Below, one piece after another: positions 35,187-53,949 of a DNA stretch of 64,000 nt. Source of the stretch: Sediminibacter sp. Hel_I_10 (GTDB lineage Bacteria; Bacteroidota; Bacteroidia; Flavobacteriales; Flavobacteriaceae). The DNA lies in contig NZ_JHZX01000001.1 of NCBI RefSeq assembly GCF_000688335.1, forward strand, positions 2,976,001 through 3,040,000, read 5' to 3'. The position numbers and the translations under genes are program-made. How positions within the stretch are numbered: position 1 is the first letter of the stretch; each line of letters opens with the position of its first letter. Below the pieces are notes generated by a model. It was not told the origin of the DNA. It saw only the letters and a program-made list of their open reading frames with translations, and did no database searches.

Positions 35187-35205
35187 AAACAAAAAATTGC
35201 AAGGT

Positions 35206-36372
35206 ATGAACAGTATGTACTTCACCGAAGAACATCAATTATTTAGACAGAGTTTAAAAGATTTCTTACAGAAAGAGGTCGTTCCTCATATTGATAAATG
35301 GGAAAAAACAGGACAGATTGATCGCTTCATCTGGGAAAAATTTGGAGAAATGGGCTTTTTTGGCCTAGCTTATCCAGAAGAATACGGCGGATTGGGACTT
35401 GACCTTTTTTACACCGTTATTTTTTTAGAAGAACTTCAAAAAGTGAATTCTGGCGGATTTGCGGCAGCCATTTGGGCGCACGCTTATTTAGCCATGACGC
35501 ATGTTAATAAAGAAGGAGATCATGACATTAAAGAAAAATATCTAACGCCGAGTATTGCAGGAGAGAAAATAGGTTGTCTTTGTATCACAGAGCCTTTTGG
35601 CGGTAGTGATGTAGCAGGGATGAGAACAACTGCTGTTAAAAAAGGAGATACTTATGTTTTAAATGGTTCAAAAACCTTTATTACTAATGGTGTTTATAGC
35701 GATTACTTAGTAGTTGCGGCTAAAACATCTCCAGAACTAGGGAACAAAGGCATCAGCATTTTTATTATGGATCGTGATACCGCTGGGATCTCGGCTACCA
35801 AGCTTGATAAATTGGGTTGGCGTGCTTCAGATACTGGTGAAATTGCATTTGATAACGTCACTATTCCCGCTTCTAATTTGATGGGAGAAGAGAATATGGG
35901 CTTTCCTTACATCATGCAGCATTTTGCACTTGAACGTTTGATTATGGGAATTAATGCACATGCTAGAGCAGAATTTGCTTTAGAGTATGCCTTAGATTAT
36001 ATGAAAACCAGAGAGGCTTTTGGAAGAACAATTGATAAATTTCAGGCATTACGCCATAAGGTTGCTGATTTGTATACCGAAATGGAAATATGCAAGGAGT
36101 TCAATTATTCTGTAGCATACAGATTGAATAAAGGTGAGTATGTGGTTAAAGAAGCTACAATGTCTAAGTTGCAGTGTACTAAAATGGCCGATGAAGTTAT
36201 CTATCAGTGTTTACAATTTTTAGGAGGTTATGGTTATATGGAAGAATATCCGCTGGCTAGACTCTCTAGAGATAGCAGATTAGGACCTATTGGTGGCGGC
36301 ACTTCTGAAATTTTGAGAGAAATTATCGCCAAAATGGTGATTGACAACAAAGACTACAAACCAGCGACATAG
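35206..36372 (+). CDS. Acyl-CoA dehydrogenase
   Basis: FAD-dependent dehydrogenase of about 388 residues. Signatures: CITEPFGGSDVAGM in the N/middle domain (ACADS_1-like), KTFITNGVYSDYLVVAAK, and in the C-terminal helical domain QFLGGYGYMEEYPLARLSRD.RLGPIGGGTSEI (written in parts), with the catalytic Glu probable in this region. The start is the ATG at 35206; a TTG nine bases upstream is less likely. The acyl chain length cannot be told. It lies 19 bp behind the HhH gene. The 3' end is remarkable: a diverged second copy of the last 16 codons and stop lies 34 bp after its own stop. Confidence 0.92.
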   Translation: MNSMYFTEEHQLFRQSLKDFLQKEVVPHIDKWEKTGQIDRFIWEKFGEMGFFGLAYPEEYGGLGLDLFYTVIFLEELQKVNSGGFAAAIWAHAYLAMTHVNKEGDHDIKEKYLTPSIAGEKIGCLCITEPFGGSDVAGMRTTAVKKGDTYVLNGSKTFITNGVYSDYLVVAAKTSPELGNKGISIFIMDRDTAGISATKLDKLGWRASDTGEIAFDNVTIPASNLMGEENMGFPYIMQHFALERLIMGINAHARAEFALEYALDYMKTREAFGRTIDKFQALRHKVADLYTEMEICKEFNYSVAYRLNKGEYVVKEATMSKLQCTKMADEVIYQCLQFLGGYGYMEEYPLARLSRDSRLGPIGGGTSEILREIIAKMVIDNKDYKPAT

Positions 36373-36405
36373 GCAGTCTGTAGCCGTTTTGGCGAAAATT
36401 CCACA

Positions 36406-36458
36406 AAATTATCGCCAAAATGGTGATTGATAATAAAGATTACAAACCAGCGGAATAG
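36406..36458 (+). pseudogene. Orphan 3' tail of an acyl-CoA dehydrogenase allele
   Basis: 53 bp aligned without gaps to 36320-36372, the end of the intact gene. In frame it reads IIAKMVIDNKDYKPAE-stop against IIAKMVIDNKDYKPAT-stop: three synonymous changes (GAC/GAT, AAC/AAT, GAC/GAT) and one replaced codon (ACA/GAA). The following 40 bp also align weakly with the flank of the first copy (shared AGTC.GTA, CGTTTT, AAAAT). It has no start codon or upstream part. Confidence 0.9.
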
Positions 36459-36537
36459 ATAGTCAGTAAGCGTTTTAGATAAAATCGCATAGAATTTTCT
36501 AAAATAGTTCTTGACGATAGCGTTGATAATTCAAAAT

Positions 36538-36572
36538 AAAATACCCGTAACATTATGTTTCGGGTATTTTGC
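36538..36572 (+). terminator. Intrinsic terminator after the acyl-CoA dehydrogenase region
   Basis: AAAATACCCG (36538-36547) and CGGGTATTTT (36561-36570) pair perfectly over 10 bp with a 13-nt loop that can itself pair. It lies after the orphan tail, not directly after the intact gene. Confidence 0.8.
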
Positions 36573-53492: not shown

Positions 53493-53807
53493 ATGGCAGA
53501 AGAGAAAAAACCTAATAAAAAGGGAATAAACATAGAGCTAGATGAAAAGATAGCAGAAGGCACTTATTCTAACTTAGCAATCATTAACCACTCAGTTTCT
53601 GAGTTTGTTGTTGACTTTGTAAGTATCATGCCCGGTACACCAAAAAGTAAGGTTAAGTCTAGAATTATATTGACACCACAACATGCGAAGCGATTATTAA
53701 AAGCTTTAGGAGACAATGTCAATCGATTTGAAAAGGCTCATGGTGAAATTAAAGATTACGAACAGCCGCCAATCCCACTCAATTTCGGACCAACAGGACA
53801 GGCGTAA
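53493..53807 (+). CDS. DUF3467 family protein
   Basis: A 104-residue soluble protein of family DUF3467: ELDEKIAEGTYSNLAIINHS, then EFVVDFVSIMPGTPKSKVKS, RIILTPQHAKRLLKAL and DNVNRFEKAHG. The family is widespread in bacteria and some archaea; its function is unknown. It follows the rpoC terminator by 78 bp. The last 15 codons (EQPPIPLNFGPTGQA) are repeated with different codons 56 bp past its stop. Confidence 0.9.
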   Translation: MAEEKKPNKKGINIELDEKIAEGTYSNLAIINHSVSEFVVDFVSIMPGTPKSKVKSRIILTPQHAKRLLKALGDNVNRFEKAHGEIKDYEQPPIPLNFGPTGQA

Positions 53808-53862
53808 TCGATAAGAACCATAAAATTACAATGCTTAGATTGGCTGTTCGAATTGTTTTAGT

Positions 53863-53911
53863 CGAACAGCCACCGATTCCGTTAAATTTCGGGCCAACAG
53901 GACAGGCGTAA
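53863..53911 (+). pseudogene. Orphan 3' tail of a DUF3467 allele
   Basis: Aligns without gaps with 53759-53807. In frame it encodes exactly the same 15 residues EQPPIPLNFGPTGQA plus stop, using different codons at six of them (CCG/CCA, CCA/CCG, ATC/ATT, CCA/CCG, CTC/TTA, GGA/GGG): seven substitutions, all synonymous. No start or upstream domain is present. An intrinsic terminator begins 6 bp after its stop. Confidence 0.92.
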
Positions 53912-53917
53912 TATATT

Positions 53918-53949
53918 AAAGCTCTCGAAATTATCGAGGGCTTTTTTTT
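53918..53949 (+). terminator. Intrinsic terminator after the DUF3467 orphan tail
   Basis: AAAGCTCTCGA (53918-53928) / TCGAGGGCTTT (53934-53944), 11 paired positions with one G-U, 5-nt loop and a T-run of eight. The only terminator visible after DUF3467. The rest of the gap up to 54142 holds a TACCTTTG box (54080-54087), a possible -7 element of the helicase gene. Confidence 0.88.

Follow-up and report, generated by a model that had tools for sequence, protein, structure and literature searches.

Minisatellites that overlap coding ends and carry an internal inverted copy at two genes in Flavobacteriaceae

The ends of two genes in the window, a 64,000-nucleotide stretch of the Sediminibacter sp. 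Hel_I_10 genome, are the first units of coding-overlapping minisatellites, in which each unit consists of a gene tail with its stop codon and a spacer that holds an inverted copy from the same gene. The structure is real and recurrent, and it is both larger and older than a preliminary description of this DNA had it. These tail arrays have a common anatomy, recur at corresponding loci, are homogenised within genomes, keep an inverted arm that tracks its own gene and decay in their distal copies. We think that they are probably best explained by template switching, followed by turnover of the units and occasional exchange between lineages.

The first array starts in the gene of a DUF3467 protein, whose product matches PF11950 with an E-value of 4e-33 (Table 1). 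As had been proposed, codons 90–104 and the stop recur 104 bp downstream; the two tails are identical at 41 of 48 positions (50 nt at 86%), and their seven base differences, distributed over six codons and including CTC versus TTA, are all synonymous. Under neutral change, the chance of seeing no amino-acid change among seven differences was below 1 in 4,000 simulations. The only terminator-like site on the gene strand past the DUF3467 gene lies beyond the second copy, again as originally reported. Absent from that report was the inverted gene copy in the spacer (GATTGGCTGTTCGAATTGTTT), which pairs with the beginning of the second tail in a hairpin of 11 bp. Taken singly, this copy had a p-value of 0.03, and the pattern is general across loci. 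Within it, GATTGG (CCAATC when reversed) agrees with the functional tail, whereas the orphan tail has CCGATT. Judged by these six bases of the inverted copy, the functional tail and the spacer would share a history distinct from that of the orphan.

Table 1. Features of the two tail arrays, in positions of the window; negative numbers count from the stop.
Feature	Position	Strand	Remark
DUF3467 protein gene (PF11950)	53493..53807	+	104 aa; last 16 codons are array unit 1
Functional tail, EQPPIPLNFGPTGQA-stop, direct copy 1	53760..53807	+	
Spacer, DUF3467 stop to second tail	53808..53863	+	
Inverted copy of DUF3467 gene segment ~-33 to -57	53838..53858	-	3-nt gap; left hairpin arm
Orphan tail, direct copy 2, DUF3467	53864..53911	+	7 synonymous differences
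Intrinsic terminator past DUF3467 array	53918..53944	+	
Acyl-CoA dehydrogenase-like gene	35197..36372	+	second array opens with its last ~17 codons as unit 1
Inverted copy of acyl-CoA dehydrogenase segment ~-35 to -52	36384..36400	-	15/17 identical
Orphan tail, acyl-CoA dehydrogenase gene	36406..36458	+	48/53 bases
Third, decayed unit of second array	36459..36540	+	by eye; arms GTTTTAGA / TCTAAAAT still paired

The second array belongs to a gene labelled acyl-CoA dehydrogenase-like from its sequence, not by family search; the hairpin of its third unit is weak. When the tails of 1,056 ORFs (1.26 Mb) were compared with their downstream sequence, this gene and the DUF3467 gene gave the two top scores, 43 and 35, the next score being 18 and the highest control 21. 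This upholds the earlier statement that two genes about 17 kb apart share one signature. A direct-repeat scan of 2.06 Mb, half of the 4.1-Mb genome, found no third gene-tail case; the repeats at 112374, 1110878 and 2021613 were rejected, being either repeats of terminators or coding-like repeats of a different type. Two regions of the same genome outside the window carry repeats of their own. One intergenic region (2021613–2021986) holds two nearly identical blocks of ~66 bp, each a terminator with its flank and 307 bp from the other, which are unrelated to gene tails, and 129-bp direct repeats spanning ~470 bp at 3101679–3102286 keep codon phase and probably encode a repeat protein.

Wherever a further tail occurs in either array, it is preceded by a spacer that derives, as a degraded inverted copy, from the gene itself at about -20 to -65 relative to the stop. 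Reverse-complemented neighbouring sequence thus sits between direct repeats, a known signature of short-range template switches. Local alignment of the spacer to the reversed gene gave p ≤ 0.01 at all six acyl-CoA dehydrogenase loci and p < 0.05 at most of 30 DUF3467 loci, all p-values being guides since the species are related and not independent; alignment in the direct orientation was at chance level for both loci. The copy is clearest in L010 (46 columns), L057 (30 nt with no gaps) and L178 (nearly the whole spacer). Spacers also fit their own gene better than the genes of other species (sum 389.5 versus 351 ± 9 when permuted, reached in 0 of 5,000 permutations). Covariation of the hairpin arms exceeded that of shuffles at both loci, with arms picked by hand around a placeholder loop, a choice that biases toward pairing and of which the permutation test is independent. 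For instance, an Ala codon near the acyl-CoA dehydrogenase tail start that reads GCC, GCA or GCT appears as GGC, TGC or AGC in the inverted copy. At two Winogradskyella loci (L044 and L045), the first codon of the orphan has gone from GAG to TGT, the inverted arm has changed too, and pairing is partly kept.

The inverted arm pairs with the beginning of the orphan tail in a bulged hairpin, which could instead be a functional 3'-UTR element, acting in RNA stability, processing or attenuation, with the tails carried along. The hairpins are indeed stable (z of -7.7, -8.4, -5.9 and -6.6), their arms covary, their GAAAT..TTTC apex is conserved across genera, and both L014 and the third acyl-CoA dehydrogenase unit keep the arms while the tail decays. 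However, the same covariation would be expected if arms were corrected by template switching, and 67 of the 99 DUF3467 loci compared have no array next to an intact gene. No known structured RNA was recognised at the arrays (no Rfam family at its gathering score), and hairpins with a GAAA apex are not enriched in the genome (87 versus 86 in the control, 2.06 Mb), a count by which we also rejected a dispersed hairpin element. We consider a functional hairpin unlikely, and favour template switching with arm correction as the source of the paired arms.

The DUF3467 array was present at 32 of the 99 flavobacterial loci, with 0 to 6 extra copies in a comparison of one genome per species. Among 22 loci from Psychroserpens, the group that includes our genome, 15 have an extra tail (13 clear and two decayed, the latter scored by eye) and seven have none; arrays also occur in Winogradskyella, Seonamhaeicola, Aestuariivivens, Snuella, Tamlana, Gaetbulibacter, Mangrovimonas, Algibacter and further relatives. 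What had been described as a scar is not a recent one-off event but an old multi-copy array, which occupies a corresponding site across the genus and in several genera, and duplicated gene ends alone should not be taken as marks of recent transfer. On a tree of the 99 loci the array requires 20 gains or losses, at least 14 of them on well-supported branches; carriers are slightly clustered (20 changes versus 27 expected), and all 32 fall within one clade. This pattern suggests that the DUF3467 array is either old and frequently lost or repeatedly gained. The acyl-CoA dehydrogenase array was found in 6 of 23 Psychroserpens genomes and at none of nine readable loci of other genera, and therefore probably has a separate, younger origin. 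Its largest example (L178, G021:C50, 2621–3261) comprises 7.6 units of 85 bp and begins inside the gene, as does an array of 6.4 units of 106 bp; a distal unit of L178 matches the functional tail over 46 bases. Contig ends fall inside arrays at L018 (G007:C9 start and C18) and L183 (G014), so draft assemblies probably undercount the copies. One contig labelled as a Colwelliaceae MAG (L102) has a flavobacterial DUF3467 locus nested inside Flavobacteriaceae, and its label is likely a binning error.

Tails and spacers are shared between the units of one genome. Between a first orphan and the functional tail of its own gene there are a median of 2 differences in 45 bases, compared with 4 to the nearest other functional tail and 5 to the nearest foreign orphan, and functional tails differ among themselves by a median of 8. 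Such sharing is concerted evolution. Stops, frameshifts or amino-acid changes have entered the last copy in many cases, and thus no peptide function is indicated; stops or frameshifts are present in 3/3 later copies of L004, 2/2 of L005 and 2/2 of L011. We likewise rejected a translated orphan peptide, as unit lengths are often not multiples of three, there is no consistent start and distal copies contain stops; the reading frame is not conserved in all copies, as such a peptide would require. The last copy of L072 is fully synonymous, and that of L064 differs from that state only in its first codon. The preliminary description had held that its model would suffer if no further cases turned up in the genome, or if both tails were conserved across the genus, the latter suggesting a function. 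Both are found in part, since the half of the genome scanned gave no further case and both tails are conserved across Psychroserpens. This conservation does not show function, because distal copies acquire stops and frameshifts.

Several orphans have diverged from their functional tail by synonymous changes only. With the first codon left out, synonymous and nonsynonymous differences number 7/0 in our genome, 10/0 in Seonamhaeicola, 9/0 in Tamlana and 6/0 in Aestuariivivens. Such counts would be unexpected for a non-coding copy drifting in place; they imply that the tails diverged while functional, and exchange between lineages is therefore likely. In L108, unit 4 is identical to the functional tail at 48/48 bases, with a further copy of spacer 1 behind it; L105 has a similar block. 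These blocks fit recombination in a shifted register, which would place a functional tail, sometimes from a diverged lineage, in an orphan position.

The preliminary description had read the duplicated tails as the product of a recurring process, namely allelic replacement by foreign DNA whose illegitimate right-hand junction left the old tail behind. The recurrence stands, in that two genes are involved, the synonymous excess extends to other genera and exchange is likely. The strength of that excess, together with the inverted copy that matches the functional tail and sets it and the spacer apart from the orphan, would suit allelic replacement. The illegitimate junction is not supported: the spacer is an inverted gene copy, and the exchange resembles homologous recombination in shifted register. 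Allelic replacement also accounts neither for the inverted copy and the multi-copy arrays nor for the homogenised spacers and the recurrence of one junction in many genera, and we regard it as quite improbable.

Integrative elements classically use gene 3' ends as attachment sites, the tails they carry differ synonymously, and their integration at such an end would displace the native tail toward the terminator. All of this would suit scars of elements that brought a tail of their own, in the manner of phage 21 and e14 at icd, but we consider such scars most improbable: exact degenerate patterns gave no tail match in 2.9 million viral contigs, every further tail in 22 Psychroserpens genomes lies within ~110 nt of the previous one, bar one at a contig end, neither set yielded an element with the same tail as its attachment site or a large insert between tails, the spacer is derived from the gene and not from an element, and two different genes would need two integrases.

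We infer a template-switch origin, as well as the recombination route and a donor lineage, along the following lines. A replicating strand would pass the stop codon, switch to the other strand near -20 and copy backward to about -65. It would then return to its own template at about -48 and copy the tail again; with the return point upstream of the switch point, the product would be a direct tail, an inverted segment and a direct tail. Short-range template switches leave this direct-plus-inverted pattern (PMC7954356); the species compared here, with and without the array, stand too far apart to display a single such event. The resulting unit of tail, stop and spacer with inverted copy would act as a small minisatellite with a coding first unit, slippage or unequal recombination multiplying and deleting units and copies within a genome being homogenised. 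Repeated arm correction at the quasi-palindrome, a process described in E. coli (PMC7202029) and yeast (PMC8604942), would keep the inverted arm matched to the gene. Occasional exchange with a diverged lineage in shifted register would put a former functional tail in the orphan position, and only synonymous differences would therefore remain. Three points tell against this explanation. With about 20 gains or losses on the tree, a model of mutation only has to invoke frequent loss or repeated origin at one gene; two unrelated genes have the same tail length (46–48 nt) and a similar loop (GAAAT..TTTC), which template switching does not predict; and two cases 17 kb apart with none elsewhere in half the genome are odd for a general mutational process. 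A biased or dedicated process in Flavobacteriaceae might repeatedly turn the last ~48 bases of certain genes into direct-inverted-direct units, providing spare, exchangeable 3' coding ends with the bulged hairpin as a recombination or processing site. We think this rather unlikely, and retain template switching with later turnover.

Our literature searches returned one unrelated paper on DUF3467 and nothing matching on tandem repeats at stop codons. The tail arrays can be set beside several systems of similar make-up. Phage 21 and e14 at icd are integrative elements that restore the gene 3' end and duplicate the tail with synonymous differences; here, by contrast, there is no element, integrase or attachment-site donor, and the spacer is gene-derived. 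Like bacterial VNTRs or minisatellites, the tail arrays consist of tandem, head-to-tail units of 80–110 bp that vary in copy number between genomes, are homogenised and have decayed end units, but here unit 1 is a conserved gene end including the stop, and each unit comes with an inverted copy of its own start. Copying of one arm from the other also keeps the inverted arms of quasipalindromes matched during template-switch mutation and arm homogenisation (PMC7202029, PMC8604942), whereas here one arm is coding, its partner lies in the 3' spacer and many species are involved. Short-range template switches likewise copy an inverted fragment from adjacent sequence; those are young events in great-ape genomes (PMC7954356), while the tail arrays are bacterial, old, multiplied and overlap a coding end. 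A minisatellite with a conserved gene end as its first unit and a backwards copy of that end as its spacer is documented across many genera. Through it, template switching and the correction of inverted arms can be followed over long times in bacteria, and its spare tails record exchange between lineages through their synonymous-only differences. Altogether, we see in the tail arrays not a novel class of system but a new form of mutational products already known.
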